Part shown: positions 10,691 to 48,927 of the stretch, piece after piece
Numbering within the stretch: position 1 is the first letter of the stretch
How the letters are laid out: every line of letters starts with the position of its first letter
NCBI RefSeq assembly: GCF_026226615.1
Contig: NZ_JAJAPB010000016.1
Span: 1-55,676, forward strand
Length of the DNA: 55,676 nucleotides
DNA from: Geovibrio ferrireducens
GTDB taxonomy: Bacteria > Chrysiogenota > Deferribacteres > Deferribacterales > Geovibrionaceae
Direction: 5' to 3'
Made by a program: the position numbers and the translations under genes
The notes under the pieces: generated by a model
Seen by the model: the letters and a program-made list of their open reading frames with translations, nothing else
What the model was told of the DNA's origin: nothing
Database searches by the model: none

Positions 10691-10780
10691 AAAAATCCCG
10701 CGTCCTGCGGGATTTTTGTACACGCTCGCGGTTTGCAAAGCAAACCTTCGCTACGCACGGCGCATTTCCATCCTTGGAGT
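10691..10780 (+). repeat. Three-hairpin repeat, copy 1
   Basis: First hairpin: AAAAATCCCGC/GCGGGATTTTT around gtcct. Connector: acacgctcgcg. Middle hairpin: GGTTTGC/GCAAACC around aaa. Then ttcgctacgcacggcgca and a short final hairpin TCCA/TGGA around tcct. The first hairpin has T-runs on both strands, so it could also terminate transcription from either side. It lies between the glycosyltransferase (3' side) and the DsbA-like gene (5' side). Confidence 0.8.
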
Positions 10781-10808
10781 TGCCAGAGTCTTTTTTTTTC
10801 AGCCACAG

Positions 10809-10880
10809 GTCACTCTGAGCAAAGCGAAGAGTCTCAGCATAATCAAATAAGAGATTCTCCACTGCGTTCAGAATGACAGA
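10809..10880. repeat. Inverted pair of gtca-tctga..gaag repeats
   Basis: gtcactctgagcaaagcgaag (from 10809) and, inverted, the sequence ending ctgcgttcagaatgacag (to 10880) belong to the common intergenic repeat of the form gtcattctga-gcgaagcgaagaatc. The two face each other about 13 bp apart and can form a long imperfect hairpin downstream of the glycosyltransferase gene. Confidence 0.65.
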
Positions 10881-10946
10881 AGCAAAGCCATCAAAGGAGG
10901 GCGGGGGAGGATTTCCCATACACCGCACGGCGGGCTTTATCCTGCG

Positions 10947-12032
10947 TCACATCCCCTTTATTATTTCCTCAATCTTCCGTGCCGATTTCTCCCAGCCGAA
11001 GCGCCGGATATTTTCATACCCTTTATTTATCAATCCGGTGCGCAGTTCCGCGGAATTACGCACACTCAGAACCTTTTCCGCTATATCCGCCGGATTCAGC
11101 GGATCGCAGTAAACAACGCTCTCCGCGCAGACCTCCCTCAGGCTTGCAGCAGGGGATGAAACAACAGGACATCCGCTTGCCTGCGCCTCAAGGGGCGGAA
11201 TGCCGAAACCTTCATAAAGAGAGGGAAAGACAAATACCGACGCGGCGGCATACACAGAAGGGATGTCCGCATCATCTATATAGCCGGTGAAAAACACCCG
11301 GCTTTTCAGTTTTTCAGATCCGTTCACCATAGCAGCAACTGCGGAATCACCCGTTATGAACCCGTCCTTTTTACCCGCTATGACCAGATTCACACCCTCC
11401 ATCAGATCCATAGCCCTCAGCAGAGTGATCAGATTCTTGTTCGGCTTCACATTGCCGACAAAGAGAATGTAGTCATCCGGCAGGGAATACTTTTTTATGA
11501 CATCAGTGTTCCTGGCTCCGCTGAAAAGTTTTTCGTCCACTGCGTTGTAAACAACCTTTATCTTTGCCGCATCCGCCGGGCAGTATTTCAGAATCTCTGT
11601 TTTGGAAAATTCCGAAACAGTGAGCACAATATCAGACAATGTGACGGCGCGGCGCATGACAAACTTCGCATATGCTCTCTGCACTGCGGAGAATATGCCG
11701 CTTTCCGCCGCCAGATGATAAGCATCATGAACCGTCACAAGCCTTTTCCCAGCCCGCAGGGGCAGAAGCGGAACATTGTAGTGCGGCGACCAGAATACAT
11801 CACAGCGCGGAACCTTCCTGAAAAGCTCAGCCTGCTCCCTGACAGAATATATCCCGGATGATGTTTCTATAAGCTTCACTCTGTCTGCCCAAGTGAACGT
11901 CCTTATCTCCTCCGGATTGCCGAGAAGGGTTATATCAAATGAATCAATAAGGAAAGGCACAATATTTCTTATGTATGTCCCTATGCCGGATGCTCTGCAC
12001 ATACGGAAATCAACTGCGAGAACGGTTTTCAT
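10947..12032 (-). CDS. Family 1 (GT4-like) glycosyltransferase
   Basis: This is a 361-residue GT-B fold glycosyltransferase. It has an N-terminal acceptor half opening VDFRMCRASGIGTYIRNI and a C-terminal nucleotide-sugar half with LFVGNVKPNKN. The E-x7-E motif EGFGIPPLEAQASGCPVV lies about residue 280. It probably adds a sugar to a cell-surface glycan, and donor and acceptor cannot be told. It is not in a polysaccharide cluster. It is divergent from ileS, with a 196-bp gap between them, and its nearest ribosome site (GGAG) is rather far from the ATG. Confidence 0.9.
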   Translation of the reverse strand: MKTVLAVDFRMCRASGIGTYIRNIVPFLIDSFDITLLGNPEEIRTFTWADRVKLIETSSGIYSVREQAELFRKVPRCDVFWSPHYNVPLLPLRAGKRLVTVHDAYHLAAESGIFSAVQRAYAKFVMRRAVTLSDIVLTVSEFSKTEILKYCPADAAKIKVVYNAVDEKLFSGARNTDVIKKYSLPDDYILFVGNVKPNKNLITLLRAMDLMEGVNLVIAGKKDGFITGDSAVAAMVNGSEKLKSRVFFTGYIDDADIPSVYAAASVFVFPSLYEGFGIPPLEAQASGCPVVSSPAASLREVCAESVVYCDPLNPADIAEKVLSVRNSAELRTGLINKGYENIRRFGWEKSARKIEEIIKGM

Positions 12033-12161
12033 ATAATTTAAAAACTCCGTGAGCTTTCTGAGGGGGCATTATCACACATTTCTTCCAATCTTTATACCCG
12101 TTTGTGTTTTATTCGCCATAATAAAACAGCCGTCTGACAGCGTCAAAACACCATCCCTCTC

Positions 12162-12190
12162 TTGATTAATGCTCTTTTTAGTGATATGTA
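12162..12190 (+). promoter_or_regulatory. Promoter of ileS
   Basis: TTGATT (12162-12167), a 17-nt spacer and TATGTA (12185-12190) lie about 40 bp before the ileS ATG. There is no room for a T-box leader between this promoter and the gene. Confidence 0.6.
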
Positions 12191-12228
12191 TTTTCTCCCC
12201 CAATAAATCATAAAGGAGTGCTGTCGCG

Positions 12229-15030
12229 ATGGATTACAAAAGCACGCTGAATCTCCCGGAAACCGGATTTCCCATGAAAGCCAACCTCTCCGTGAGAGAG
12301 CCGGAACGCATAAAAAAATGGGACGAAGAGAACGCATATTCCAAAATAATGAAAAAAAGGGAAAACTGCGAAAAATACATTCTCCATGACGGCCCTCCAT
12401 ATGCAAACGGCCATATCCACATCGGACACGCACTGAACAAAATTCTTAAAGATTTCGTGGTGAAGGTAAAATCATTTGAAGGCCGTCAGGCGCCCTACAT
12501 CCCCGGATGGGACTGCCACGGTCTGCCCATTGAACATCAGGTGGATAAAAAGCTCGGCAGCAAGAAGCATGAGCTCTCAAAATCTCAGATAAGAAAGCTC
12601 TGCCGTGAATACGCAACAGAGTTCATAAACATACAGAGGGAAGAGTTCAAGCGTCTCGGCGGTTTCGGCGACTGGGACAACCCGTACATAACCATGGATC
12701 ATGTTTACGAAGCCAAAACCCTTGAGGAGCTTTACAGATTCTTCAACAACGGCGGAGTTTACAAAGGTTCAAAGCCCGTTTACTGGTGCACAAGCTGCGT
12801 TACCGCCCTCGCCGAGGCGGAGGTGGAGTACGATAACCACACATCACACTCCATATATGTCAAATTCCCCGTCCGTGACGCTGACAAGGCAAAGCTCGGA
12901 CTTGCGGCATCAGATAAGGTGTCATCCGTAATCTGGACAACCACGCCATGGACACTCCCTGCGAACCTTGCCGTCTGCGTTCATCCCGATTTTGTTTACG
13001 CTCTCGTAAAAGTCACCGAGGCGGATAACAAAAATCTCGGCGGCGAATACATAGTCGTTGCGGAAGAGCTTCTTGAAAAGCTTCTCGGCGAGTTTAAGAT
13101 AACCGCTTACGAAAAAACGGCAACCTTCAAAGGGGCGGATCTCGAAGGTATAAAAAACAAGCACCCCTTCTATGACAGGGATTCAGCAATAATCCTCGGC
13201 GATCACGTAACCCTTGAAGCGGGCACGGGACTTGTCCACACAGCCCCCGGCCACGGTCAGGAGGACTATGTTGTCGGTCTCAGATACGGCCTTGAGGTGC
13301 TTAACCCTGTGGACGATTACGGTGTGTTTAAAAAGGACACTGAAATATTCGCAGGAGAGCACATAAACAAAGCCAACCCCAAGATAGTCGAACTCCTTGA
13401 TGAAAGCGGCGTTCTTCTCTCCCACGGTAAAATAGAGCACTCCTACCCCCACTGCTGGCGCTGCAAAAACCCCGTAATATTCCGCGCCACCCCACAGTGG
13501 TTTATATCCATGGAAACCAATGACCTGCGCAAAAAGGCGCTGGACGAGATAAAGAGGGTTCAGTGGGTTCCCGCATGGGGACAGAACAGAATCAACGCTA
13601 TGATAGAGCACAGGCCGGACTGGTGCATCAGCCGCCAGAGGACATGGGGCGTACCCATAGCCGTTTTCACCTGCCAGGACTGCGATGAGGTATATATACC
13701 GAAGGATGTTCAGGAAAAAGTTCTCGCCTCTTTCCGTGAGCACGGCGCAGACGCATGGTTCGACATGGAAGCGGAGGAGTTTATCGGCAAGGATGCCAAA
13801 TGCCCGAAATGCGGCGGCGCAAGGCTGAAAAAAGAGACGGACATCCTTGATGTATGGTTCGATTCCGGCGTTTCTCACTCCGCCGTGTGCGAGGAGAGAA
13901 AAGAGCTCGGCTGGCCTGTGAACATGTACCTTGAAGGGAGCGACCAGCACAGGGGCTGGTTCCACAGCACACTCCTTGAGTCAGTCGGCACAAGGGGCAG
14001 AGCGCCGTATGACGAGATACTCACCCACGGATTTGTTGTGGACGGCAAAGGGCGCAAAATGTCCAAGTCCTCCGGCAATGTTGTGGCTCCTGATGAAATA
14101 ATAAAGAAATACGGCGCAGAGGTTCTCCGCCTCTGGGTTTCTGCGGAAGACTACTCGGAAGACATAAGAATCTCCGATGACATAATAAGCCGCCTTGTGG
14201 AATCCTACAGGAAGATCCGCAACACGGCCAGATACCTCCTCGGCGTAATATCCGACTTCAACCCCGATACAGACATGGTTGAATACGATAAGCTGCTTGA
14301 TCTGGACAAATATGCCCTGATCCGCTGGCAGGCTGTGAAGGAGCGCATCTACAACGCATATGACAGATACCAGTTCCACGTGTTTTACCACACGTTCCTG
14401 AACTTCTGCATAAACGACCTCAGTTCCTTCTATCTTGATATAATAAAGGACAGGGTTTACGCATACAGAAAGGATTCGCACCAGCGCAGATCAGCGCAGA
14501 CAGCGCTTTTCACCATAACAAGAGAGATGAGCATAGTAATGGCTCCCATTCTCTCCTTCACTGCGGACGAGATATGGGAGTTCATCCCCGGCTGGAGCGG
14601 CAAAAGCGAACTTGTTTTCGAGGAACTTTTCCCCAAGGTTCTCCCTCTGAAAGATGAAAAACTTGAAGCGAAATGGAACAGAATCATAGAGATAAGAAGA
14701 GAAGTCAACAAAGCCCTTGAACTTGCCAGAACAGAAAAAGTTATAGGGCATTCTCTCGGTGCGAAGGTTATCGTCGGACTCTCAGAAGCCGACAGAGAAA
14801 TCATGTCAGCAGATGAGGGGATAGAGAAAATCTTCATAGTCTCAGAACTTGAGCTTACGGACATAAACACCCTTGAAGGTGCTTACACGTCTGAGGACAA
14901 AACTGTGAAGGTAATAGCAAGCGCATCCGCAAATCAGAAGTGCGAGAGATGCTGGTGTCAGGTTCCCACAGTGGGGGCTGACCCCGCTCACCCGACAATC
15001 TGCTCAAGATGCGCCGAGGCGATAAGCTGA
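12229..15030 (+). CDS. ileS: Isoleucyl-tRNA synthetase
   Basis: This enzyme charges tRNA-Ile. At 933 residues it is the bacterial long form. It has the class I signature HIGH (residues 64-67), the editing domain, KMSKS (610-614) and a C-terminal zinc finger CERCWC...CSRC. The ATG has AAAGGAG upstream. lspA follows after one base, the ileS-lspA order seen in many bacteria. purH is third in the operon. Confidence 0.98.
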   Translation: MDYKSTLNLPETGFPMKANLSVREPERIKKWDEENAYSKIMKKRENCEKYILHDGPPYANGHIHIGHALNKILKDFVVKVKSFEGRQAPYIPGWDCHGLPIEHQVDKKLGSKKHELSKSQIRKLCREYATEFINIQREEFKRLGGFGDWDNPYITMDHVYEAKTLEELYRFFNNGGVYKGSKPVYWCTSCVTALAEAEVEYDNHTSHSIYVKFPVRDADKAKLGLAASDKVSSVIWTTTPWTLPANLAVCVHPDFVYALVKVTEADNKNLGGEYIVVAEELLEKLLGEFKITAYEKTATFKGADLEGIKNKHPFYDRDSAIILGDHVTLEAGTGLVHTAPGHGQEDYVVGLRYGLEVLNPVDDYGVFKKDTEIFAGEHINKANPKIVELLDESGVLLSHGKIEHSYPHCWRCKNPVIFRATPQWFISMETNDLRKKALDEIKRVQWVPAWGQNRINAMIEHRPDWCISRQRTWGVPIAVFTCQDCDEVYIPKDVQEKVLASFREHGADAWFDMEAEEFIGKDAKCPKCGGARLKKETDILDVWFDSGVSHSAVCEERKELGWPVNMYLEGSDQHRGWFHSTLLESVGTRGRAPYDEILTHGFVVDGKGRKMSKSSGNVVAPDEIIKKYGAEVLRLWVSAEDYSEDIRISDDIISRLVESYRKIRNTARYLLGVISDFNPDTDMVEYDKLLDLDKYALIRWQAVKERIYNAYDRYQFHVFYHTFLNFCINDLSSFYLDIIKDRVYAYRKDSHQRRSAQTALFTITREMSIVMAPILSFTADEIWEFIPGWSGKSELVFEELFPKVLPLKDEKLEAKWNRIIEIRREVNKALELARTEKVIGHSLGAKVIVGLSEADREIMSADEGIEKIFIVSELELTDINTLEGAYTSEDKTVKVIASASANQKCERCWCQVPTVGADPAHPTICSRCAEAIS

Positions 15031-15031
15031 T

Positions 15032-17210: not shown

Positions 17211-17376
17211 CGAATGCGTGAGCAGCAGGACAGGATGTACCTGTCTGCGAACTATCATCAAAATAGCATTACAATTCCATGGATGGAATTGCGCCGTGCG
17301 AAGTGAAGCCGTGTTACCACGGCGCGAATGTGTGAGCAGCAGGACAGGATGTACCTGTCTGCGAACTATCATCAAA
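17211..17376 (-). repeat. Three-hairpin repeat, copy 2 (partly dimeric)
   Basis: Read on the minus strand: first hairpin gacagg/cctgtc around tacat, connector, middle hairpin GCCGTG/CACGGC, connector cttcacttcgcacggcgc, last hairpin CAATTCCA/TGGAATTG around tcca. After this the first hairpin and connector recur: 17211-17262 and 17325-17376 are 52-bp direct repeats with one mismatch. The element ends 12 bp before the purD start and so forms its leader. Confidence 0.85.
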
Positions 17377-17388
17377 TAAGGATTAGCA

Positions 17389-21706: not shown

Positions 21707-22609
21707 CTATTTTGCTTTCGGATGGGTTTGATCGTACACTCTCAGGAGATCACTGAGGTTCAGGTGAGTATATTTCTGCGTTGTGGAGAGGGATTCATGC
21801 CCCAGAAGCTCCTGAATGGTGCGGAGATCAGCCCCGCCCTCAAGAAGATGTGTGGCGAAGGAATGCCTGAACGAGTGCGGAGAGAAATCCGGCGGAAGCC
21901 CCGCCTCTTTCAGATACTTCTCCACAATGCGCCCGACAGAGCGTTCGGTCAGTCTTGTGCCGTATTTGTTGAGGAACACAGCATCATCCTTCGGGTAATG
22001 CCCCTCAGCAGGCACATCGGCACGCACACGCATATATTCCGCTATAAGTTCCCCCAGTATATCACCAAGGGGGATTATGCGCTCCTTCTTCCCCTTTCCG
22101 CGAACGCGCATGCGCATGCCGCGGAGGTCAACATCGGAAATATTCAGCCCTGTGAGCTCAGAAACACGCACACCCGTTCCGTACATAAGCTCCAGTATAA
22201 GCGCATCACGCATTCCGGCGGCTTCTGTTTTGTCAGGAAGTTCAAGGAGGTTCAGGAGGTCGTCTATATTAAAGACATTAAAGGCTTTTTTCTCTTTTTT
22301 CGGAAATTTAAGCATACGGGCGTGGTTGTCATCGGTGATCCCTTTTTTATGCAGAAATTTAAAGAATGATTTCAGGCAGGCTATCTTTCGTTCCGCTGTG
22401 GATTTTGAAATGTCCCTGTCAAAAAGTGAGGCGGCAAACCCACGCAGAATAAAGAAATCCACAGATTTCACATCGTTTATTTTTTCAGTTTCCAGATATT
22501 CAGCAAGTTCGGTCAGATCACCGGAATACGCCTTTATTGTATGCTCTGAGGCGTTTTTTTCGTTTTTCAGGTACAAAATGAAATCGGCGATCGCACGGTC
22601 TTTATTCAT
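21707..22609 (-). CDS. xerC: Tyrosine recombinase XerC/XerD family
   Basis: This is a site-specific recombinase of 300 residues, the usual Xer length. It has an N-terminal SAM-like domain (about 5-90) and the catalytic domain with GTGVRVSELTGL (Arg), HSFRHSFATHLLEGG (His, Arg), LGHESLSTTQKYTH (His, catalytic Tyr). Its place after topA-trmFO matches the conserved topA-trmFO-xerC order, hence XerC, acting on dif in chromosome dimer resolution. The start at 22609 is chosen on homology: the 24 upstream codons are the translated repeat copy 3. No good ribosome site exists other than GGA within that repeat. Confidence 0.93.
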   Translation of the reverse strand: MNKDRAIADFILYLKNEKNASEHTIKAYSGDLTELAEYLETEKINDVKSVDFFILRGFAASLFDRDISKSTAERKIACLKSFFKFLHKKGITDDNHARMLKFPKKEKKAFNVFNIDDLLNLLELPDKTEAAGMRDALILELMYGTGVRVSELTGLNISDVDLRGMRMRVRGKGKKERIIPLGDILGELIAEYMRVRADVPAEGHYPKDDAVFLNKYGTRLTERSVGRIVEKYLKEAGLPPDFSPHSFRHSFATHLLEGGADLRTIQELLGHESLSTTQKYTHLNLSDLLRVYDQTHPKAK

Positions 22610-22612
22610 AAT

Positions 22613-22705
22613 CTTAATCCAAACATCCTGTCGGATTAAGATACACGCTCGCGCCGTGAAAAACACGTCTTCTCTGCGCACGGCGCAGTCCCGTCCGTGG
22701 GACTG
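22613..22705 (+). repeat. Three-hairpin repeat, copy 3
   Basis: First hairpin CTTAATCC/GGATTAAG around aaacatcctgtc, connector acacgctcgcgc, middle stem CGTG/CACG, connector cttctctgcgcacggcg, last hairpin CAGTCCC/GGGACTG around gtccgt. It ends 3 bp from the xerC start codon and so is the xerC leader. Confidence 0.85.
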
Positions 22706-33860: not shown

Positions 33861-33870
33861 CTATTAATGC

Positions 33871-33961
33871 CAAATTCCCTTCCATGGGAATTTGACATAC
33901 ACGCTCGCGGTCTGCAAAGCAGACCTTCGCTTCGCACGACGCAGTTCCATCCATGGAACTG
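33871..33961 (+). repeat. Three-hairpin repeat, copy 4
   Basis: First hairpin CAAATTCCC/GGGAATTTG around ttccat, connector acacgctcgc, middle hairpin GGTCTGC/GCAGACC around aaa, connector ttcgcttcgcacgacg, last hairpin CAGTTCCA/TGGAACTG around tcca. All three stems are complete. It lies between the convergent pyc and uvrC genes. Confidence 0.9.
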
Positions 33962-34058
33962 TGACAATTAGCCGAACTCAGGTTCCGCTGAAATCTCCGC
34001 AATAAATTGCTTCGATTCGCTCCACGGACACGTCCCTGTGTCTCGTTTTTCCCGCTCC

Positions 34059-34140
34059 AAAAACTACATCCTGTGTTTTTTACGCACACGCTCGCGCCGT
34101 GATAAACACGGCTTCGCTTCGCACGGCGCATGTCCTGTAT
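34059..34140 (+). repeat. Three-hairpin repeat, copy 5 (last hairpin lost)
   Basis: First hairpin AAAAAC/GTTTTT around tacatcctgt, connector acacgctcgc, middle hairpin GCCGTG/CACGGC around ataaa, connector ttcgcttcgcacggcgca. It then breaks off at tgtcctgtatt without a closing stem, 7 bp before copy 6. Confidence 0.85.
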
Positions 34141-34147
34141 TGATAAT

Positions 34148-34241
34148 CCAAAATTCACCATCCCTGGGAATTTTGGATACACGCTCGCGCCGTGGTAAAC
34201 ACGGCTTCGCTTCGCACGGCGCAGTTCCATCCTTGGAACTG
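34148..34241 (+). repeat. Three-hairpin repeat, copy 6
   Basis: First hairpin CCAAAATTC/GAATTTTGG around accatccctgg, connector acacgctcgc, middle hairpin GCCGTG/CACGGC around gtaaa, connector ttcgcttcgcacggcg, last hairpin CAGTTCCA/TGGAACTG around tcct. It ends about 34 bp from the uvrC stop. Confidence 0.9.
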
Positions 34242-36152: not shown

Positions 36153-36183
36153 AGAGATTGTTTCACTTCGTTCGCAATGACAG
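36153..36183 (-). repeat. gtcattgcgaa..gaagcaatct repeat
   Basis: agagattgtttcacttcgttcgcaatgacag is one copy of the common intergenic repeat whose other orientation reads gtcattgcgaacgaagtgaaacaatc. A close relative stands at 48979-49006. It lies between uvrC and the chemotaxis receptor. Confidence 0.7.
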
Positions 36184-36268: not shown

Positions 36269-37915
36269 TTAAGTCCTGAACCTGCCCACAAGCTCCTCCA
36301 GACCTTCGGCCTGTTTGCTGAGTTCGCTGACTGTGGTGGCTATCTCATCAATCGACATGGAACTGCGCTCAATATTGCCGGAGATAACCTGTGTGTTCTG
36401 GTTTATGTTCTGGATAGCCGTTACCTGCTCCTCCACACTGGCCGCGATAATTCCGCTGGTGGTGTCTATCAGCTTGACTGATTCCACTATGCGGTCAAAG
36501 AAGCTCTGTGTTTCCTCAATAATCTCAACTCCGCCTTCGACTTTGCCCTTAGCTTTTGACATGCTTTCGGAAGCCACGTCAGCCTCATTCTGGAGCGCGG
36601 TTATTATGCTGTCGATCTCTTTGATAGCGCTCTGGGAGCGTTCCGCAAGCTTACGGACTTCATCAGCCACAACAGCGAATCCGCGCCCGTGTTCTCCCGC
36701 CCTTGCTGCCTCTATTGCGGCATTAAGCGCCAGAAGGTTGGTTTGATCAGCTATATCATTAATAACATTAAGTATATTACCGATACGGCGGGATGACTGT
36801 GAAAGGTTGTCAACCGTAGCACCCAGATTATCCACATTGCTTTTTATATCGGTTATCTCTTTAACAGCGGAAAGAAGCTTCGCTCTGCCTGCTGTTATGT
36901 TTTTATCCGCGGTTTCGGTTTTGTCCTTCATCTCATCCAGCGAGCGCAGAACCTCTTCTGAGGAAACGCTTATCTCTTCCGTGGCGGAAGCGGTTGCAAC
37001 TATCTGCGAGGACTGGTCGCCGAAGCTCACCGCAAGCTGCTCAGATGTTGCGGAAAGCTGTGTGCTTCCTGCCGCCACCTGCCGCGCTGAATCCTTGACT
37101 GTATTTATAATCTCATTGAGTTTTTTAACAAACCTGTTGAAATGCCCTGCCATTTCCCCTATTTCATCATTGCCTTTCACAGGGAGGGAAACAGTAAGGT
37201 CGCCCTCACCTTCTGAGATCTGCCTGAGAACATCATTAGCACTCTTTATACCGCTGAGGAGTGCCCGTGCGATAATAACAGAAACCACAAAGCCGAAAAG
37301 CAGCCCGACAACAACGAAGGCAATGAGTTCATATCCTGCGCGCTTTTCAACCGCATTTGATCTTGTTTCAAGCTCTTCTATTAATTTGTCATTCACTTCC
37401 GTGAGCGCATCTATCTGGTCTCTCATTGCCTGAAACGCAGCAGCACCCTCATTGAGCGTGAGCATAAGAGCAGTCGCCCTGCCTTCACTGGTATCTGCTT
37501 TTCGGGCTTCCACAATTTTTAATGAAACTGTCTCCCACTCCCTTCTCTGGCGATCATACTCCGCCAGAAGAGCTTTTTCATCAGGAGTGGTTGCCGTTTC
37601 TCTGTATTTGTTCATTCTGTCGCGGGACTGCTGGGCATTGTCATTGTAATCTTTCAGCAGTTTCTGGAAATTATCGCTTTCCGCATTGGAAAAAATCATA
37701 GTTCTCTCAGCAATAAGAAGCTGGTGGAGATCCCTGTCAGCCTCAAGGAGAAGCTGTACGGCAGGCATCCGGATTCTGAGAGCCTCAGAGAGAAGATCGT
37801 CAATGCTCTGAGTGCTTTTATGCCCCACAAAACCGCTGACGGCAAGGAGAACAAGCAGGATTCCGAAGCTGATAAAAAGTTTGGTTTTTATCCTGATATT
37901 ATTTAACAACGACAT
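36269..37915 (-). CDS. Methyl-accepting chemotaxis protein
   Basis: This is a 548-residue receptor. It has membrane segment 1 (about 12-30), a periplasmic four-helix-bundle sensor (about 31-190), membrane segment 2 (about 193-215), HAMP (about 216-270) and the signalling domain. The conserved hairpin tip [24 protein letters not shown] contacts CheA/CheW. The ligand is not predictable from the sensor. The chain ends in ELVGRFRT, without a CheR-docking pentapeptide. GAGG precedes the ATG. No che genes lie nearby. Confidence 0.95.
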
Positions 37916-42156: not shown

Positions 42157-42707
42157 TTTATCCCCCTTGCGAAATTTATGAAATTAGTGACCATTTTCGC
42201 ACCCTCTTCACTGCGCACCGATTCCGGGTGAAACTGAACACCGAAGAGCATTTTTTCCTTATCTTCCATAGCCATAACCTCGCCGTCGCTTTTTGCTCTG
42301 GCTGTCACGAGATGATCCGCACCTTTGACGGCAAGGGAGTGGTAGCGCACTGCGTCAAACTCATTTATCCCTTCAAAAATAACGCTTTTCTCCGCCTTCA
42401 CCCTGTCTATCTTTCCGTGCATAACCGACTTTGCCCTGCCCACCTCATAACCCAGATGATAGCCTATCGCCTGCATTCCGAGGCAGACACCGAATATGGG
42501 CTTTCTGCCTGCGTATTCTTTCAGGTAGTGCAGGCTTGTGCCTGAGTTTGCAGGGTGCGAAGGGCCGGGGGATATTATAATCCCTTCGTATTTATCGGCA
42601 TTAACCGTTTCGTTATTCTTTATCAGCTCAACCTCCGCGCCGTTCAGCCTGAACAGGGCATACAGGTTGTATGTGAATGAATCGTAGTTATCAACGAGCA
42701 AAAACAT
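42153..42707 (-). CDS. trpG: Anthranilate synthase glutamine amidotransferase component
   Basis: TrpG supplies ammonia from glutamine to TrpE. The 184-residue class I amidotransferase has VDNYDSFTYNLY, the oxyanion loop ISPGPSHP, the nucleophile in FGVCLGMQAIG (Cys about 78) and the His/Glu pair in GVQFHPESVRSEEG. It overlaps trpE by 17 nt and trpD by 4 nt, so TrpE:TrpG balance is probably kept by translational coupling. Confidence 0.96.
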   Translation of the reverse strand: MFLLVDNYDSFTYNLYALFRLNGAEVELIKNNETVNADKYEGIIISPGPSHPANSGTSLHYLKEYAGRKPIFGVCLGMQAIGYHLGYEVGRAKSVMHGKIDRVKAEKSVIFEGINEFDAVRYHSLAVKGADHLVTARAKSDGEVMAMEDKEKMLFGVQFHPESVRSEEGAKMVTNFINFARGIK

Positions 42708-44163
42708 TGCTGTCCTCCAGATTTTTCAGTCTTTCGCAAGCGGCGAACATTGCGTTGAGCTTGTTATTTACCTCTTTGAATTCGTTTTCCGGCTTACTGT
42801 CGTAAACTATACCCGCTCCGGCGCGGAGTATCATTTTATCCGGCTTAACAAGCGCACTTCTGATAGTTATGCATGTGTCGAGGTTGCCGCTGTAGCCGAA
42901 GTAGCCTACGCACCCTGCGTAAAAGCCTCTGGTTGTGGTTTCGTATTTGCTGATAAGCTCCATAGCCCGCACCTTCGGCGCACCGCTTACTGTGCCCGCT
43001 GGGAAGGTTTTCATAAATGCGTTCAGGGGCGAAAAGCCTTCCTTCAGCTTTCCGGAGACAGATGAAACAATGTGAACCACATGGGAATAAACCTCCGCCT
43101 GAAAGCATTCGTCAACATTCACGCTCTCAGGTTCGCATCCGGCGTAAAGGTCGTTTCGGGCAAGGTCAAGGAGCATAAGGTGCTCTGAAATCTCTTTCGG
43201 GTCATTAAGGAGAGCGTTCTTTATTCCTTCTATGTCATCGCCTATGGGGTAAGTTCCCGCTATGGGCTTGAGTACCGCCTTTTTGCCAACCACTTTCAGG
43301 TGGATTTCGGGGGATGAACCGCAGAGAACATCTTTTCCGAACTTGAGATAAAACATATAAGGAGAAGGGTTTACATTTCGCAGCGCCCTGTAGAAGCTCA
43401 CAGGGTTTACCTTAGCCTTAATCTCGAACCTGTTGGAGAGAACAACCTGAATAGCCTCGCCTTCGATTATCTCTCCCCTGAGCTTCTCCACAAGCTCCAT
43501 ATATTCAGGCTGCTCAAACTCCTTAACAGGGTCAGCCATACCGGAATCGTGGGAGTCAAAGTTAAGTCCGTGAAGCTCGCCCGCCATAGCCTCAGTGCGT
43601 TTTACCGCCTTGGCGTATGCCTCTTCCGCATCCCCTTTAAGCGGAACGGAGCATGCGGCGTAAATTCTTCCCATGCGGTTGTCAAACACATAGAACTCAT
43701 CCACTTCGAAAAAGCCTATGAGGTTCTCATCTGAAGGTTCAGGGAGAAGCTCGCGGAGTGTGCCCATATAGTTTGCTGATTCGTAGCCGAAATAGCCCAC
43801 AAAACCGCCCGCGAAATCGCCGAAGCGTCCGTCGTTATAGCCTTTGCTTTTGAAAAACTCCTGACCCAGATAGTCCATGGGGTTCATCATAAAGGTGTTC
43901 TTCTTGCCCCCTTTCTCTTCTGTGATGGTTCCGCCCTTAAAGGTTATCACCCTCTTGGGCTTGCGGCCGAAGAAAGAGAACCTTGAAAAAGTCTTATCAA
44001 GATTCGCACTCTCCAGAAGAAAAACATGCTTCTCATTTGAAAAATTGCGGAGAAGGGCAATGGGCGTGAGCGTGTCCCCGGCTATCTCCCTGTAAACCGT
44101 AGCCCGGTCATACTTCGCTCCGTCTGCTATCTCCTTGAAAACACTCAGTTCGGGATAGATCAT
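42691..44163 (-). CDS. trpE: Anthranilate synthase component I
   Basis: TrpE turns chorismate into anthranilate and is normally feedback-inhibited by tryptophan. The 490-residue product has the N-terminal regulatory part with LLESANLDKTFSRFSFFG, where the LLES element commonly binds Trp. The chorismate-binding core includes EAIQVVLSNRF, LKPIAGTYPIG, PAGTVSGAPKVRAMELI and RAGAGIVYDSKPENEF. It is the first structural gene of the operon, about 480 bp from the leader peptide. TAGGAG precedes the ATG. Confidence 0.97.
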   Translation of the reverse strand: MIYPELSVFKEIADGAKYDRATVYREIAGDTLTPIALLRNFSNEKHVFLLESANLDKTFSRFSFFGRKPKRVITFKGGTITEEKGGKKNTFMMNPMDYLGQEFFKSKGYNDGRFGDFAGGFVGYFGYESANYMGTLRELLPEPSDENLIGFFEVDEFYVFDNRMGRIYAACSVPLKGDAEEAYAKAVKRTEAMAGELHGLNFDSHDSGMADPVKEFEQPEYMELVEKLRGEIIEGEAIQVVLSNRFEIKAKVNPVSFYRALRNVNPSPYMFYLKFGKDVLCGSSPEIHLKVVGKKAVLKPIAGTYPIGDDIEGIKNALLNDPKEISEHLMLLDLARNDLYAGCEPESVNVDECFQAEVYSHVVHIVSSVSGKLKEGFSPLNAFMKTFPAGTVSGAPKVRAMELISKYETTTRGFYAGCVGYFGYSGNLDTCITIRSALVKPDKMILRAGAGIVYDSKPENEFKEVNNKLNAMFAACERLKNLEDSNVFAR

Positions 44164-44250
44164 GCTGTTAACTCCTATCTTAATTAATTTTTATTTATTC
44201 ATTCTTCAGTTATTTCTATAAACCCTTGTAGGTTTTCATTCGTTTAAGCA

Positions 44251-44346
44251 TTTTCAAAAAACTACATCCTGTGTTTTTTGAAAAGACGCTCGCGGCGGGG
44301 TAACCCCGCCTTCGCTTCGCACGGCGCATTCCCGTCCGTGGGAATG
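44251..44346 (+). repeat. Three-hairpin repeat, copy 7
   Basis: First hairpin TTTTCAAAAAAC/GTTTTTTGAAAA (12 bp) around tacatcctgt, connector gacgctcgc, middle hairpin GGCGGGG/CCCCGCC around taa, connector ttcgcttcgcacggcg, last hairpin CATTCCC/GGGAATG around gtccgt. It lies inside the transcribed trp leader, 87 bp before trpE. Confidence 0.9.
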
Positions 44347-44390
44347 TGTGACTACCCTCATCACCAACTCCGAATAGTCAAAGCGTGTGT

Positions 44391-44524
44391 CCTGACTGCA
44401 CAGGATGTCGGCAGTCGGACTATAAACGGCTCCGCGGATGGAGCCGCGCCGTGCGAAGCGAAGACGCATTCACTGCGGCGCGAGCGTGTGTCCTGACTGC
44501 ACAGGATGTGGCAGTCAGGACTAT
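44391..44524 (-). repeat. Three-hairpin repeat, copy 8 (partly dimeric)
   Basis: On the minus strand: first hairpin GTCCTGACTGC/GCAGTCAGGAC around cacatcctgt, connector acacgctcgc, middle CGCA/TGCG, connector cttcgcttcgcacggcg, last hairpin CGGCTCC/GGAGCCG around atccgc. A second, imperfect copy of the first hairpin and connector follows (44391-44425). It lies inside the transcribed trp leader, directly after the second terminator. Confidence 0.85.
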
Positions 44525-44563
44525 AAAAACAGAAAGGGGGTCGCTGTTTTCACAACGACCCCC
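44521..44563 (-). terminator. Second terminator in the trp leader
   Basis: On the minus strand GGGGGTCGTTGT pairs with ACAGCGACCCCC (12 bp with one wobble) around a GAAA tetraloop, followed by TTTCTGTTTTT. It stands about 20 nt past the attenuator, between trpL and trpE. It must be read through for trpE to be expressed from the leader promoter. Confidence 0.8.
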
Positions 44564-44616: not shown

Positions 44617-44632
44617 GTATTATCACAGTATC

Positions 44633-44665
44633 AGCGGACAGCCTCCTATTCCGAAAGCGTCCACC
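44633..44665 (-). promoter_or_regulatory. Pause/anti-antiterminator hairpin (1:2) of the trp leader
   Basis: GGTGGAC (44665-44659 on the minus strand, covering two of the Trp codons) can pair with GTCCGCT (44639-44633). A ribosome stalled at the Trp codons would cover the first arm, as the attenuation model needs. The competing 2:3 pairing I find is weak (GGCTGT with the AC..AGCC just before and in the attenuator stem). Confidence 0.5.
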
Positions 44666-44711: not shown

Positions 44712-44719
44712 AATCAGCG

Positions 44720-44747
44720 ATTATAAGTATCTGTATAAAGAAGTCAA
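44720..44747 (-). promoter_or_regulatory. Promoter of the trp operon
   Basis: TTGACT (44742-44747), a 16-nt spacer and a consensus TATAAT (44720-44725) lie on the minus strand. The -35 overlaps the TGA of the MFS gene. Just upstream a 15-bp palindrome, gcggaaa-t-tttccgc (44748-44762), spans the last MFS codons and is a possible operator. Confidence 0.85.
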
Positions 44748-45892
44748 GCGGAAATTTTCCGCCTTTCCTGCATGAACCACGCAGCGGCGATGGAAACAGA
44801 AACCACAGAACCGATCAGAAGCAGAAAAGCATTCCACCCGAACCTGCTGTAAACAAACCCCGGAAGGAATGAACCGAAGGTTCCGCCGCCGTAATAGAAG
44901 GAAACATACAGTCCGTTGGTTATCCCTTTTTTATCCTCCGCTATCTTGTTGACATAGCCGGATGCCACTGAGTGCGCCAGAAACATGCCGCAGCAGAAAA
45001 GGAACATGCCGAAAAACATAACGTAAAGGCTCGGATAGGTAAACAGAAACAGTGTGCAGGCATAAAACACGAGAGCCGTGAAAACCGTGTTCATCTCTCC
45101 GCCGAAAATCTTGATTATCCGCAGCGCATTCAGCGACATGACTATACCCATGATATAGCCCATGTACATGATGCCTATGGTGAAGGAGGACGAACCCGCG
45201 CTTATCTCCCTCACCCTGAAAGGTATGAAGTTCAGAATTGCGGCAAAGGTAAAGAAAGTGGCGAAAATAAGCAGATAGATTGTGGCGAACTGCCTTTTTT
45301 TAAGCACATCCAGAACAGAACGGACGCTGAATTTTGAAATCTGTATCTCCGCTTCGTGGAGGCTGCGGATAAGCACAAATGCAAGCGAAAGGCTGAAAGC
45401 GAGTATGAGAAATGTCCAGCGCCAGCCGAAGTATGAGGCGATAAGCCCTGAAAAAAATCTGCCCGCAAAACCGCCGAGGATAGTGGACGAGATGTAGTAT
45501 GCCATCTGCTTCTGCACTGTTTCCCTTTTGGTGACGGTGGATATGTAGGTCATTATGGAAGTGAGCACCGCAGGAATAGCCATGCCGACAAAAAAACGTA
45601 TGACTATCAGCAGGTGGAAATTATCCGTAAAAAAGAACGCAAGCTGGAGAAGAGCCAATGCGCCTATACCTATTGAAAAAAGCTTTTTTGAGGAAAACGA
45701 TTCCAGCATATAGCCGTAAACAATCGGCGCAATGCCAAGGGGAATCATGGTGACAGTGGTGAGAAGAGCCGCCTGCTCCTTGCTTACGCCGAATTCGCTC
45801 ATCAATATGGGCTGTAAGGGCTGGGGGGCATACAGGGCGGAAAATGTCATGACCGTGGCATACACCATGATCAGTGTATGGTAAGTTCGCAC
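44744..45892 (-). CDS. MFS transporter
   Basis: This is a 382-residue permease with about 12 membrane segments in two bundles of six. The N-terminal half has FSALYAPQPLQPILMSEFGVS and the linker motif GYMLESFSSKKLF. It resembles the YnfM-like drug/metabolite efflux group (PQPLQP is typical). The substrate cannot be told. It starts 2 nt after the DUF1461 gene and ends in the trp promoter. Its position next to the trp leader makes an aromatic compound a tempting, unproved substrate. Confidence 0.88.
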   Translation of the reverse strand: MRTYHTLIMVYATVMTFSALYAPQPLQPILMSEFGVSKEQAALLTTVTMIPLGIAPIVYGYMLESFSSKKLFSIGIGALALLQLAFFFTDNFHLLIVIRFFVGMAIPAVLTSIMTYISTVTKRETVQKQMAYYISSTILGGFAGRFFSGLIASYFGWRWTFLILAFSLSLAFVLIRSLHEAEIQISKFSVRSVLDVLKKRQFATIYLLIFATFFTFAAILNFIPFRVREISAGSSSFTIGIMYMGYIMGIVMSLNALRIIKIFGGEMNTVFTALVFYACTLFLFTYPSLYVMFFGMFLFCCGMFLAHSVASGYVNKIAEDKKGITNGLYVSFYYGGGTFGSFLPGFVYSRFGWNAFLLLIGSVVSVSIAAAWFMQERRKISA

Positions 45893-45894
45893 TT

Positions 45895-46635
45895 CTAGTT
45901 TATCCCTCTGTTCAGGCTGAAAAGCACACCTGCTATAAACATAAGTGCAGTATAAAAAACAAATGCTAATATGACAAGCATTAAGGCTATATAACCGAAA
46001 ATATCCGGAGCATGCATCAGAACGGTCATCAGGGATTCTTCATAATAAAAAAACCACTGGTGCTCCTTAAAAACCACTTCATGAAGGAAGTAGAAAACCT
46101 CTTTTACACCGAAAGCATAAATCAATAACCCGCTCAGGCAGAGAACACCCAGAGTCACCGGAACGGCAATAATCGGTCTCGCAGGACGGATCTTCTGGTT
46201 CGCCATGGCGATAATGCAGAAAAGGGAAGCCACAATGAAAAAGTATGAGCTTATCTTAAACCAGAAAACAACATCCGAAACATCCATAAGATGCTGAATT
46301 TCAGGTGTTGTGAGGAGTTTGTATGACTGCTCAGTCATCATTGGCCTGAACTCGATATTCTCAAGCCCTTCACCCGCGCTGTTGATTGCCCTGCTTATTT
46401 CACCGAAGAGCCTTTCATGCTCCTCCCTATCGGTGAGGACGAACAGTTTTTTCTCGCTGTCGGCGTTTTTCGGGGCGTATTTCCGCACCATGCCGTCAAT
46501 ATCAAGCATTTTGTACATGGAGGAATAGCCGAAGTCAAATTTTGACATAGCTGTCCAGGAAAAGAAGGCGGAAGTGTAAAAAAGGCATACGCCGAAGAGT
46601 ATGTTAAGCAGAATACCTGCCGTTTTTTTGTTCAT
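45895..46635 (-). CDS. DUF1461-like membrane protein
   Basis: This is a 246-residue protein with about four membrane segments: one near the N-terminus (8-30), then a soluble extracytoplasmic loop (about 35-120). Three further segments follow, the last two separated by FYFLHEVVFKEHQWFFYYEESLMTVLMHAP. That HE..F..HQWFF...SL block is the DUF1461 signature I know. Function is unknown. It lies 4 nt after the HD-GYP gene and 2 nt before the MFS gene, so it is in their operon. Confidence 0.75.
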   Translation of the reverse strand: MNKKTAGILLNILFGVCLFYTSAFFSWTAMSKFDFGYSSMYKMLDIDGMVRKYAPKNADSEKKLFVLTDREEHERLFGEISRAINSAGEGLENIEFRPMMTEQSYKLLTTPEIQHLMDVSDVVFWFKISSYFFIVASLFCIIAMANQKIRPARPIIAVPVTLGVLCLSGLLIYAFGVKEVFYFLHEVVFKEHQWFFYYEESLMTVLMHAPDIFGYIALMLVILAFVFYTALMFIAGVLFSLNRGIN

Positions 46636-46639
46636 AATT

Positions 46640-47785
46640 TCAAAGCCCCTCGTCGGGCGTGTCCTTGTAGGTATCTCTTACGGTGATAAATTTATCAAGA
46701 TTATCAAAAAATACTTTAACCAGAGCAGGGTCAAAATGCTCTCCGCTCTCTTCCCTGAGAAGGTTCAGAATCCGTTCCATTTCCCATGCTTTTTTATACA
46801 CCCTGTCGCTTCCGAGGGCATCAAAAACGTCTGCAATGGCGGTTATGCGGCCGAAAATATGTATATCCCCGCCGGAAAGGCCGTAAGGGTAGCCCTTTCC
46901 GTTCCATTTCTCATGATGGGTGAGTGCCACCGTTGCCGCAGCTTTCAGTATTTTCCTTTCGGAATGCCTGAGTATGTTGTAGCCCATAACAGCGTGGCTG
47001 CGCATAACTTCCCATTCCTCATCATTAAGCTTGCCGGGTTTCAGAAGTATGGCATCGGGAATGGCAACCTTCCCTATGTCATGCATGGGCGAGGCCATTT
47101 TCAGGAGTTCGGCCTCCTTTTCGTTCATGCCGCTGCCGATAGCCAGAATGTAGGAGTATTCGGCAACCCTTTTCACATGGTAGCCCGTCTCCTTTGAGCG
47201 CATCTCCCCGGCTTCCGCCATGGTAAAGATAATCTCCTTCTGCGTGTGTTCTATCTCCTGCTGCATAAGCACTGTGGAAAGCTCCTTCCCTGTGTAGGTA
47301 GCGGCCAGCATCAGCCTGCGCACATCCTCCTCGGTGAATTTTCCTTCCTCAGTCATTTTATTTATAGCCTGAAAAACCCCTATGACGTTTCCTTCCGGGT
47401 CGTGGTAGGGGATTGCGATCATGTTTCTTGTGCGGTAGCCTGTCTGCATGTCCACGGTTTTGTCAAAACGAGGATCGCTGTAGGCATCGTTTATGATAAT
47501 CACCTCATCATTCTCCGCGGCTTTCCCCGCAATGCCGCTTCCCAGAGGAATGCTTATCCTGTCCAGCCCGTGGGCAACCTTTGTCCAGAGGATGTCCCAG
47601 CGTCTGTCTATCAGCCAGACCGTACACCTGTCCGCCACGACAAGATCACGCCCCATATCAGCCAGAATCACAAGCATCTGATCCAGACGGTGTTCGTTTG
47701 CAATCAGGCCTATGTAGCTGAAAATAGATGCTACAAGCTCTTCTGCCGTGGGCTCCGGTCTGGAGATGTACAGCTTCTCAGACAT
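46640..47785 (-). CDS. GAF / HD-GYP cyclic di-GMP phosphodiesterase
   Basis: This is a 381-residue protein. It has a GAF sensor domain (about 25-180, with DRCTVWLIDRRWDILWTKVAHG and FQAINKM) and an HD-GYP domain (about 195-365). The HD pair is in ASPMHDIGKVAIPD and the full GYP motif is HHEKWNGKGYPYGLSG, so an active phosphodiesterase is expected, opposing the diguanylate cyclase at 20241-21542. The GAF domain could sense a small molecule or redox state. It is preceded by the 53-residue membrane protein gene. Confidence 0.93.
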   Translation of the reverse strand: MSEKLYISRPEPTAEELVASIFSYIGLIANEHRLDQMLVILADMGRDLVVADRCTVWLIDRRWDILWTKVAHGLDRISIPLGSGIAGKAAENDEVIIINDAYSDPRFDKTVDMQTGYRTRNMIAIPYHDPEGNVIGVFQAINKMTEEGKFTEEDVRRLMLAATYTGKELSTVLMQQEIEHTQKEIIFTMAEAGEMRSKETGYHVKRVAEYSYILAIGSGMNEKEAELLKMASPMHDIGKVAIPDAILLKPGKLNDEEWEVMRSHAVMGYNILRHSERKILKAAATVALTHHEKWNGKGYPYGLSGGDIHIFGRITAIADVFDALGSDRVYKKAWEMERILNLLREESGEHFDPALVKVFFDNLDKFITVRDTYKDTPDEGL

Positions 47786-47786
47786 A

Positions 47787-47948
47787 TCATTTCTTCCTTG
47801 ATTCTAAAAACATATGCACAAACACAATTACTACCATAACAGCAGCAGTTGCAAGCAAAATCATTTTCCCGTCAGTCATGGCCGACTGGAAATGCTTCTG
47901 GGCTGAGGCCACCCTTTCAGGCAGCTGGCTGTGATAAATAAGGTTCAT
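47787..47948 (-). CDS. Small single-pass membrane protein
   Basis: This 53-residue frame lies between the flavin reductase stop (2 nt gap) and the HD-GYP start (1 nt gap). It has AGGGAG 6 nt before its ATG, so it is almost surely a gene. The first ~28 residues are soluble (NLIYHSQLPERVASAQKHF). Residues about 29-46 are a strong membrane segment (MILLATAAVMVVIVFVHMF), and the tail is ESRKK. Positive-inside reasoning puts the Lys/Arg tail in the cytoplasm. No family is recognised. It may anchor or tune the HD-GYP protein that follows, which is inference from position alone. Confidence 0.8.
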   Translation of the reverse strand: MNLIYHSQLPERVASAQKHFQSAMTDGKMILLATAAVMVVIVFVHMFLESRKK

Positions 47949-47950
47949 CG

Positions 47951-48454
47951 CTACTCCCTGAATATTTTCAATACTTCTCCTATATAGATTCGGTGATAAT
48001 CCTTAGCCGGATAAAATTTTTCTGCACCTTCATCCAGAAAATTACGGCTGTCCATATCCTGAAAATATATCTTTTTGCAGAGAAGCACCAGTCTTGCCTG
48101 CTCAAATGCCGTTGAACCGCCTACGGGAATAGCCGTGAGCCCGGTTTCCAGCGCCTTATCGTAATCCCTGCCTGACTTTGAGCCGCAGAAATTAAGCGCC
48201 GGGCGGAACTCCTCACTGAAAAAAGAGAGGGTAAATTCATCATTCTTTTCCATAAAGCCGTAAGTGTATCTGGTGGGGCGCACATAAACAGTTGCGGCGG
48301 GCTTATTCCAGAGAATACCGAGGCCGCCCCAGCTTGCGGTCATGGTGTTGTAAGAATCGGGTGTGCCCGCCGTGATCAGCGTCCAGTCTTTGCCGATCAG
48401 CCTGAAAGGGTTGTCGCTGAGTTCTTCAGGCTTAATGATATCAAAATGCTTCAT
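47951..48454 (-). CDS. Flavin reductase-like FMN-binding protein
   Basis: This is a 167-residue split-barrel flavoprotein with TLITAGTPDSYNTMTASWGGLGILWNKP and VRPTRYTYGFMEKNDEFTLSFF. These blocks are typical of flavin reductase-like proteins that bind FMN and use NAD(P)H or pass electrons on. The physiological partner is unknown. It overlaps the upstream cytochrome c gene by 4 nt, which suggests a redox unit of the two. Confidence 0.85.
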   Translation of the reverse strand: MKHFDIIKPEELSDNPFRLIGKDWTLITAGTPDSYNTMTASWGGLGILWNKPAATVYVRPTRYTYGFMEKNDEFTLSFFSEEFRPALNFCGSKSGRDYDKALETGLTAIPVGGSTAFEQARLVLLCKKIYFQDMDSRNFLDEGAEKFYPAKDYHRIYIGEVLKIFRE

Positions 48455-48720
48455 TTATTCTCCTTTGATGCGAGAAATTCCGCCACTGCTGAGGCTTCGC
48501 TCCCGGTTATTTTAAGCCCGAAGCCCTTCATTCTGTCAATGGTGGAAGCCCACTTCTTCTGATCATACTGTTTTTTCAAAGCAAGCTCAAGGCTGTGGCA
48601 TCCGGCGCATTTAGAAGTAAAAACCTTTTCACCGTCAGCCGCTTTTGCGTTTACGGTTATCAGTATACAGACAGAAATTACAACGATTAGAAAGATAATA
48701 AAAGATTTTAAAGATTTCAT
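48451..48720 (-). CDS. Small mono-haem c-type cytochrome
   Basis: This is an 89-residue exported protein with a signal peptide or N-terminal anchor (about 7-27) and one haem site CAGCH (Cys38, Cys41, His42). Met64 in the DRMKGFG stretch is a likely sixth ligand. The start at 48720 has AAGGAGG upstream. The frame is open further back, but those 31 codons are the translated repeat copy 9. It heads the operon leading through flavin reductase to the MFS transporter. Confidence 0.9.
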   Translation of the reverse strand: MKSLKSFIIFLIVVISVCILITVNAKAADGEKVFTSKCAGCHSLELALKKQYDQKKWASTIDRMKGFGLKITGSEASAVAEFLASKENK

Positions 48721-48742
48721 GACTTGCCTCCTTGATCTGATA

Positions 48743-48834
48743 ATAAAAATCCGCACATCCTGTCGGATTTTTATACACGCTCGCGCCGTGGTAAACACGG
48801 CTTCGCTGCGCACGGCGTCGGCACTTCCTGTGCC
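48743..48834 (+). repeat. Three-hairpin repeat, copy 9
   Basis: First hairpin ATAAAAATCCG/CGGATTTTTAT around cacatcctgt, connector acacgctcgc, middle hairpin GCCGTG/CACGGC around gtaaa, connector ttcgctgcgcacggcg, last hairpin GGCAC/GTGCC around ttcct. It lies 22 bp before the cytochrome c start. Confidence 0.9.
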
Positions 48835-48855
48835 TCATTCATCTGAGACCTGATA

Positions 48856-48927
48856 ATAAAAATCCGTACATCCTGTCGGATTTTTATACACGCTCGCGCC
48901 GTGATGAACACGGCTTCGCTGCGCACG
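48856..48927 (+). repeat. Three-hairpin repeat, copy 10 (last hairpin lost)
   Basis: First hairpin with the same stem as copy 9 around tacatcctgt, connector acacgctcgc, middle hairpin GCCGTG/CACGGC around atgaa, connector ttcgctgcgcacg, then truncated. It stands 21 bp from copy 9 in the same orientation, so the pair looks like a local duplication. Confidence 0.85.

Follow-up and report, generated by a model that had tools for sequence, protein, structure and literature searches.

A dispersed three-hairpin repeat of Geovibrio with interchangeable paired stems and constant loops resembling CsrA sites

The window analyzed here is the whole 55,676-nucleotide stretch of contig NZ_JAJAPB010000016.1 from Geovibrio ferrireducens, and it carries ten copies of an intergenic repeat of about 95 bp in which three hairpins are joined by two connectors. 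A sequence-only reading of this DNA had listed ten such copies. These are real: a covariance model built from 24 copies (R1), which we ran on the window, on the draft own genome (G000) and on other genomes, including those of two congeners (G001 and the complete G002), recovers ten window copies, of which two are on the minus strand. For connector 2 (TTCGCTTCGCACGGCG) there are ten window matches at three or fewer mismatches, compared with a chance expectation of 0.51 and a maximum of 2 in shuffles. The entries listed at 17211 and 44391 are real elements, but on the minus strand, and beside each is a truncated extra hairpin 1. The description of each copy as three hairpins holds for most copies but not for those at 34059 and 48856, which have no proper hairpin 3. 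In the following list, the numbered copies are R1 matches.

10687-10781, plus strand: copy 1, hairpins 1, 2 and 3
17211-17271, minus strand: truncated extra copy (hairpin 1 and connector), 93% like 17325-17385 (repeat family D4)
17273-17366, minus strand: copy 2, between two plus-strand genes and on the opposite strand to them
22609-22704, plus strand: copy 3, adjoining a tyrosine recombinase gene (xerC/D-like)
33865-33960, plus strand: copy 4, first in a cluster of three
34052-34147, plus strand: copy 5, without a proper hairpin 3, continuing into copy 6
34144-34240, plus strand: copy 6
44250-44345, plus strand: copy 7, lying upstream of the minus-strand, trpE-like gene at 42691-44163
44382-44426, minus strand: truncated extra hairpin 1 adjoining copy 8, 84% like 44483-44527 (repeat family D7)
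44428-44523, minus strand: copy 8, in the opposite orientation to copy 7
48741-48835, plus strand: copy 9, the reference copy
48743-48774, plus strand: hairpin 1 of copy 9, arms 48743-48753 and 48764-48774, bulged base 48754
48755-48763, plus strand: apex of that hairpin, ACA-TCC-TGT (sense strand ACA-GGA-UGU)
48775-48784, plus strand: connector 1 of copy 9, ACACGCTCGC
48785-48801, plus strand: hairpin 2 of copy 9, GCCGTG-GTAAA-CACGGC (GGCAGG-ATGAA-CCTGCC at the same locus in G002)
48802-48817, plus strand: connector 2 of copy 9, TTCGCTGCGCACGGCG, with a variable base within sense-strand GCGNAGC
48820-48834, plus strand: hairpin 3 of copy 9, GGCAC-TTCCT-GTGCC (sense loop AGGAA)
48854-48927, plus strand: copy 10, in tandem with copy 9 (period 113), without hairpin 3

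Covariation and replacement of the stems

In an alignment of 139 copies over 27 base pairs, which was fitted to the structure and therefore favors pairing, standard pairs filled 92.5% of the cells (7.5% were unpaired), compared with 61.0% in shuffles. Cells changed on both sides numbered 1127, compared with 346 in shuffles, and were present in 27 of the 27 pairs; no slid version of the pairing came near the true register. A loop-anchored check of hairpin 1 in 125 copies, with the bulge position chosen to favor pairing, found pairs 3 to 9 to be Watson-Crick in 94-99% of copies, and a bulged base was chosen in 119 of the 125. Script parsing, which left nine of 150 R1 matches unparsed, gave 125 distinct arms of hairpin 1 in 141 parsed copies, 35 of hairpin 2 and 96 of hairpin 3; at least eight pairs were present in hairpin 1 in 125/141 parsed copies and at least five in hairpin 3 in 114/134. 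The sequence-only reading had described stems that change freely and always stay paired, and the overwhelming covariation bears this out and strongly supports selection on a single-stranded structure. The number of distinct hairpin 1 arms likewise upholds the distinction drawn there from REP sequences, which keep their stem sequence. Free variation applies to most pairs, but some are fixed: the eighth and ninth pairs from the apex of hairpin 1 are A-T in 112/125 and 109/125 copies, and of 136 copies scored for the outermost pair of hairpin 2, 128 have G-C there.

When the folds of six pieces of the sense strand were predicted (z-scores -2.2 to -5.1), hairpins 3 and 1 appeared in all six, and in three of them the 3' arm of hairpin 2 paired instead with the conserved GCGCCGUG of connector 2 in the minimum-energy fold. 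Connector 2 holds CACGGC(G), which resembles the 3' arm found in the most common allele of hairpin 2 (window 48785-48817 and other GCCGTG copies), and therefore an alternative fold is possible. The sense strand of connector 2 also reads GCGNAGC with a free N, for example at window 48802-48817; this resembles the GNA-loop DNA mini-hairpin and could be a fourth small hairpin.

One-sided changes to another standard pair, mostly G-U, were found in at most 7 of about 135 copies per pair, except at the two apex pairs of hairpins 1 and 3 (21 and 19), and no pair of hairpin 2 had more than one. We compared corresponding sites in 42 copy pairs from three species; these pairs are not independent (one site can enter up to three times), they were drawn from the best-scoring copies, and some, for example on contigs C5 and C14, may not be orthologs. 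Hairpin 2 had 157 unchanged base pairs, 77 two-sided Watson-Crick changes and 15 one-sided changes; the corresponding numbers were 279, 61 and 23 for hairpin 1 and 123, 34 and 33 for hairpin 3. Further two-sided changes in which one side had a wobble or lacked a pair numbered 7, 3 and 20 in hairpins 1, 2 and 3, respectively. At corresponding loci hairpin 2 was often swapped whole with hairpin 1 unchanged. For example, at locus 48741 G002 has hairpin 2 GGCAGG/CCTGCC, where G000 and G001 have GCCGTG/CACGGC, and at locus 17273 the three species have three different hairpin 2 stems next to a nearly identical hairpin 1.

The earlier suggestion that a copying mechanism rebuilds the stems is favored by the few G-U intermediates and by the excess of two-sided over one-sided changes in hairpins 1 and 2, but not by hairpin 3, in which the two are equal. 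Since hairpin 3 has 34 versus 33 such changes and 7.5% of the cells are unpaired, ordinary one-sided mutation is also present. Taken together, these results point to stem replacement largely as a unit, via template switching in the hairpin or conversion from another copy; such stem changes need a copying process at the DNA level in addition to any reader of the RNA. Template switching is said to make such stem changes in RNA genes (PMC8794818). The family is a natural record of whole-hairpin replacement, and because it has many copies and corresponding loci in sister species, the joint change of paired stems is directly testable.

Loop consensus and orientation relative to genes

Among the parsed stems, TCC was found in the loop of 118/125 hairpins 1 and 102/114 hairpins 3 (absent from 7/125 and 12/114). 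The loop tally also required TG after the TCC; (N)TG followed in 116/118 and 98/102, and 2/118 and 4/102 failed. The constant hairpin 1 loop noted by the sequence-only reading is thus confirmed, but TCC(N)TG is also common to hairpin 3, which had gone unremarked, and the loops of hairpin 2 differ from it. The base facing the loop T is free (A75 G25 T8 C8 in hairpin 1; A51 T28 G13 C6 in hairpin 3), and since it can be any of the four bases, the two do not form a conserved base pair. Beyond them comes a pair that is nearly always C-G, and then one that varies with pairing kept.

The opposite, sense strand of hairpins 1 and 3 reads C-A-N-G-G-A-N-G (CANGGANG), or CAGGANG in the shorter loops. The strand read earlier is antisense to most flanking genes, and the sense strand has CsrA/RsmA consensus loops, CsrA being a protein that regulates numerous mRNAs. 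The CsrA consensus obtained by SELEX (systematic evolution of ligands by exponential enrichment) is RUACARGGAUGU, with ACA and GGA fully conserved and AC pairing with GU; RsmE complexes have an ANGGAN hexaloop, and CsrB has CAGGA(U/A/C)G repeats (PMC7652899). The C-A-N-GGA-N-G loops agree with these published features of CsrA and RsmE (PMC7652899). As in CsrA-binding RNAs, the GGA lies in a hairpin loop within A(N)GGA, and each RNA would offer the two or more sites expected for a CsrA dimer, one each in hairpins 1 and 3 and more in arrays.

We also scanned 919 kb of G001 and G002 for intergenic hairpins with the element's own geometry, counting loop registers. TCC was the commonest loop (115/609, the next being 26), and 104 of the 115 were within detected elements. 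In the same 919 kb a second, rarer three-hairpin repeat was observed, with connectors CACTCGCAG ... TTGCTGCTCTCACTCCGT and outer loops CATCC(N)TG. It has four pattern matches, three of them clear by eye; its sites are at 412861 and 413089 of the joined G001 stretch and at 218838 of G002 (joined coordinates), and it also occurs in the downstream flank of locus L001.

The position of the elements relative to genes was determined with our own codon-score gene calls. In the own genome, 108 of 124 clusters were usable, the flanks of the other 16 being too short. The gene on the hairpin 3 side reads toward the element in 81 clusters and away from it in 17, with 10 undecided; the gene on the hairpin 1 side is on the same strand in 59 and on the other strand in 40. 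At co-directional loci the GGA strand is sense in 51 and antisense in 12. In 39 of the 48 arrays in stretches of G001 and G002, the gene on the hairpin 3 side points at the element, its stop codon a median of 41 bp away. The elements are thus mostly sense and 3' of genes. Next to genes that run against the contig majority, the gene-sense orientation was kept in 9/13. An orientation driven purely by replication was set aside, as orientation seems more strongly associated with genes, but the Fisher tests behind this are small (p 0.037 and 0.063) and the sites in G000, G001 and G002 overlap.

Distribution, turnover and associated genes

The sequence-only reading had proposed a search of the genome and its relatives with a covariance model, and with R1 the family proves to be genome-wide, abundant in two congeners and scarce or absent elsewhere. 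Copy numbers are lower bounds, since each search scored a limited number of candidates (150 in the own genome and in G002, 107 in the search of 39 genomes and 83 in that of the phylum sample): at least 150 in the own genome of 2.97 Mb (150 of 962 candidates were scored, and all matched at an expectation value E of 0.01 or lower), at least 150 in G002 and at least 107 in G001. In the own genome the copies are spread over 122 clusters; a 459 kb stretch of G002 has 69 matches in 30 clusters and a 460 kb stretch of G001 has 39 in 17. Tandem arrays of near-identical units of about 90-240 bp are common in G002, where five-copy arrays exist, and the array spacers are locus-specific and sometimes contain the end of the adjoining gene. 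In the draft genome, 15 or more contig ends are within about 120 bp of a copy, as would be expected if arrays break the assembly.

R1 matched 13 of 39 genomes, the own genome included, and ten of these are outside the genus, with 1 to 10 matches each. At E 1e-5 with stricter filters, 7 of 50 genomes in a phylum sample matched, again counting the own genome. The outside-genus set comprised 20 loci in ten genomes, in which two G003 loci and two G037 loci are near-copies or neighbors of each other, and the connectors and stems of these loci have diverged. Of 42 hairpins called there, 24 have a TCC loop, 17 have neither TCC nor GGA, and one has GGA; the last is in the G005 locus, the single one whose strand is not set. 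All 24 TCC hairpins read A(N)GGA in sense, and their closing pairs vary (by eye).

No match at the gathering score was found between the window and the Rfam covariance models, and when five loci were compared with Rfam up to E 5, none of CsrB, TwoAYGGAY and Bacillaceae-1 was among the matches. A known RNA family was therefore rejected, the two matches listed, Ocean-V (E 0.3) and UCA1 (E 0.82), being far under their gathering scores. None of the papers listed in our searches of the open-access literature of PubMed Central was seen to describe this repeat or any dispersed repeat carrying CsrA sites.

The 30 clusters in the G002 stretch divide into 11 common to G001, 17 without a detected counterpart there and 2 lacking an anchor; for the 17 clusters of the G001 stretch, the corresponding numbers with respect to G002 are 10, 5 and 2. 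The search for empty sites proposed earlier was carried through for 17 of the 22 not-detected sites, and about nine of them contain remnants (by eye), which suggests that the family is old in the genus and is turning over locally. Direct repeats of about 40-70 bp of the 3' end of the adjoining gene flank elements, and several begin exactly at the apex of hairpin 3; such elements in G000 are C2:278492 (L003), C4:9484 (L005), C10:32351 (L016) and C1:23814 (L024). By eye, only synonymous changes separate the repeat copies at L005, and likewise those at L016. The flank direct-repeat score was 16 or higher in 39/93 copies, some of which are tandem element copies, compared with null 95th and 99th percentiles of 15.1 and 32.5; given the latter, middling scores prove little. 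Target-templated hairpin arms, or a target duplication, were rejected because orthologous regions have arrays with gene-end spacers and remnants, and the same hairpin 3 arms are present at unrelated loci. Tandem duplication with partial loss is the simpler account of the direct repeats.

csrA is single-copy in G000, G001 and G002. In the own genome it overlaps the fliW gene, and its protein matches solved CsrA/RsmA structures, including RsmE 2JPP. All 13 R1-matching genomes of the 39 have csrA, and the 8/39 genomes without csrA have no match. This co-occurrence is weak support, because the genomes are related and many csrA-bearing ones lack the element.

The sequence-only reading had found no RAYT gene in the window and had proposed to look for a linked mobilizing enzyme. 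A search for the Y1 (RAYT-type) transposase domain PF01797, the only transposase searched for, had no hit in G000, G001 or G002, which extends the absence of RAYT to the whole genome and both congeners. The reverse transcriptase domain PF00078 had no hit in G000 and G002 and one in G001. An origin by RAYT or reverse transcriptase was rejected on these grounds. A tyrosine recombinase gene lies beside the copy at 22609. In our reading, copy 3 is directly upstream of this gene if the gene starts at the ATG of MNKDRAIADF; the longer GTG start in the list of open reading frames overlaps the copy. The recombinase itself appears to be the housekeeping XerC/XerD.

Candidate CsrA sites and competing explanations

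The reading that we favor, with a probability of about 0.55, is that this dispersed intergenic repeat plants paired CsrA sites in transcripts and that its stems are renewed by copying at the DNA level. The fixed A(N)GGA loops, the free paired stems, the two outer sites and the gene-sense placement would be best explained by CsrA or a CsrA-like RNA reader. RNA made in the gene direction (the minus strand of the earlier reading) would fold into a plain hairpin flanked by two hairpins that have CsrA/RsmA-type loops. CsrA would recognize A(N)GGA in a loop closed by a paired stem, so that the stem sequence would be free and the pairing and loops would be held. Lying mostly just downstream of genes and in sense, singly or in tandem, the repeats would give transcripts pairs of CsrA sites or many of them, and they may act as local CsrA control elements and jointly as a spread-out CsrA sponge. 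The stems could be renewed as units by template switching within a hairpin and also by gene conversion between copies, which would be most visible for hairpin 2, and tandem duplication would homogenize each array. We infer transcription of the elements, binding by CsrA, a regulatory effect and the copying mechanism. If this is true, a repeat family that delivers CsrA-type sites to the ends of genes would represent a novel means of building or buffering a global regulon. Only tentatively, and at well under even odds, we extend this to a self-spreading repeat that put hundreds of CsrA sites at gene ends in sense and made ordinary mRNAs a CsrA sponge, its stems being replaced whole by DNA copying and its protein-read loop held, such that a regulatory network grew by means of a modular hairpin repeat.

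Several results weigh against a CsrA reader. Most hairpins in the CsrA SELEX had four or fewer contiguous pairs (PMC7652899), and long stable stems may disfavor CsrA binding; the scarcity of G-U pairs is unusual for a constraint purely at the RNA level. Outside the detected elements, hairpins with TCC showed no enrichment in the 919 kb scan (11/460), and the loop may therefore be kept merely as a part of the repeat. Many genomes that lack the element also have csrA. Outside the genus, numerous matches are weak, with E up to 0.006, only those in G007, G016, G036 and G049 are left at E 1e-5, and the model used for this search was built from TCC-loop copies. The opposite orientation was found at 17 of the 98 decided loci, the GGA strand of copy 8 is antisense to both flanking genes, and in G002 orientation correlates with replication direction (replichore). 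Of 48 arrays, 12 had a recognizable ribosome-binding site and start no more than 70 nt away, compared with 59/396 random intergenic positions, so repression at start codons is not a general rule; general start-codon control was rejected for this weak support.

An explanation that we consider unlikely is that the hairpins act as single-stranded DNA, their loops and the hairpin 1 bulge being read, as in the terminal hairpins of IS200/IS605, by a mobility or recombination enzyme; the family would then be a non-autonomous mobile element. The dispersal over 122 clusters in the own genome, the rarity of G-U/G-T pairs, the bulged base in nearly all hairpins 1, the gene-end direct repeats in the flanks, several starting exactly from the hairpin 3 apex, and the orientation-replichore correlation in G002 are all in keeping with it. 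However, PF01797 was not found in the three genomes, nor PF00078 in G000 and G002 (other mobility enzymes were not searched for), orientation tracks the adjoining gene even where this runs against the majority (small tests), weak distant matches keep only A(N)GGA of the loop, and about half of the inspected not-detected sites hold remnants. We give still less credence to functionless selfish or neutral palindromic repeats, in which template switching keeps the arms perfect and tandem duplication and gene conversion multiply the copies. The two-sided stem changes, the scarcity of G-U intermediates, the remnants at orthologous sites and the tandem arrays, whose spacers are locus-specific, all fit such repeats. 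Template switching by itself, however, would not preserve A(N)GGA in the loops of hairpins 1 and 3 when those of hairpin 2 differ, and it would not account for the gene-sense bias.

Placement close behind stop codons (the median of 41 bp in the 39/48 arrays) and hairpin 1 outer arms that are often A-rich and T-rich would also suit mRNA 3'-end elements, that is, terminators or stabilizing hairpins as proposed for REP sequences, in which the loop sequence is irrelevant. This seems improbable, because termination does not depend on a fixed loop, whereas the loop here ranks with the best conserved parts, and what follows hairpin 1 on the plus strand is connector 1 (ACACGC), with no T-run.

As candidate CsrA sites, the repeats can be compared with known systems. 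REP, REPIN and BIME sequences associated with RAYT are short intergenic palindromic repeats, dispersed and in tandem mosaics. The present repeat is likewise short, intergenic, palindromic, dispersed and in tandem, but it has a conserved loop and no conserved stem sequence, and no Y1 transposase was found in the three genomes. CsrB/CsrC and RsmX/Y/Z have many GGA motifs in hairpin loops, and the five-copy arrays of G002 would hold about ten such hairpins; those RNAs are dedicated small RNA (sRNA) genes, whereas the repeat has at least 150 short intergenic copies, mostly sense (PMC7652899). As of 2014, CsrA-sequestering sRNAs had been identified only in Gammaproteobacteria, according to PMC4333381, and CsrA binding had been proposed from motif matches for two others, TwoAYGGAY (RF01731) and Bacillaceae-1 (RF01690). 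These two resemble the repeat in having paired GGA-loop hairpins outside Gammaproteobacteria (PMC4333381), but the repeat has other connectors, a central plain hairpin, a high copy number and no Rfam match at the gathering score in the window. The hairpin elements of sponge mitochondria are also dispersed in intergenic DNA, but their stems are conserved and their loops vary, the reverse of the repeat here (PMC2800124). Template-switch evolution of RNA stems likewise makes multi-base compensatory changes in a single event, but it is a general mutational mechanism described in RNA genes and not a repeat family (PMC8794818). The TAACTGA direct repeats of Beggiatoaceae are also abundant and intergenic and were discussed as post-transcriptional control sites with CsrA considered; they have no GGA motif, and their author called CsrA unlikely, whereas the repeat here has constant GGA loops (PMC4679880).

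Other repeated sequences were observed in the window. Dispersed repeats of the types GAGATTGTTTCACTTCGTTCGCAATGA and GATTCTCCACTGCGTTCAGAATGACA occur beside elements, at window 36154-36180, 48978-49004, 10853-10878 and 49034-49059 and in the L007 flank. A gene segment at about 36520-36870, which by eye resembles a methyl-accepting chemotaxis protein, has many matches of about 66-88% identity across the three genomes and is probably a paralogous signaling domain.

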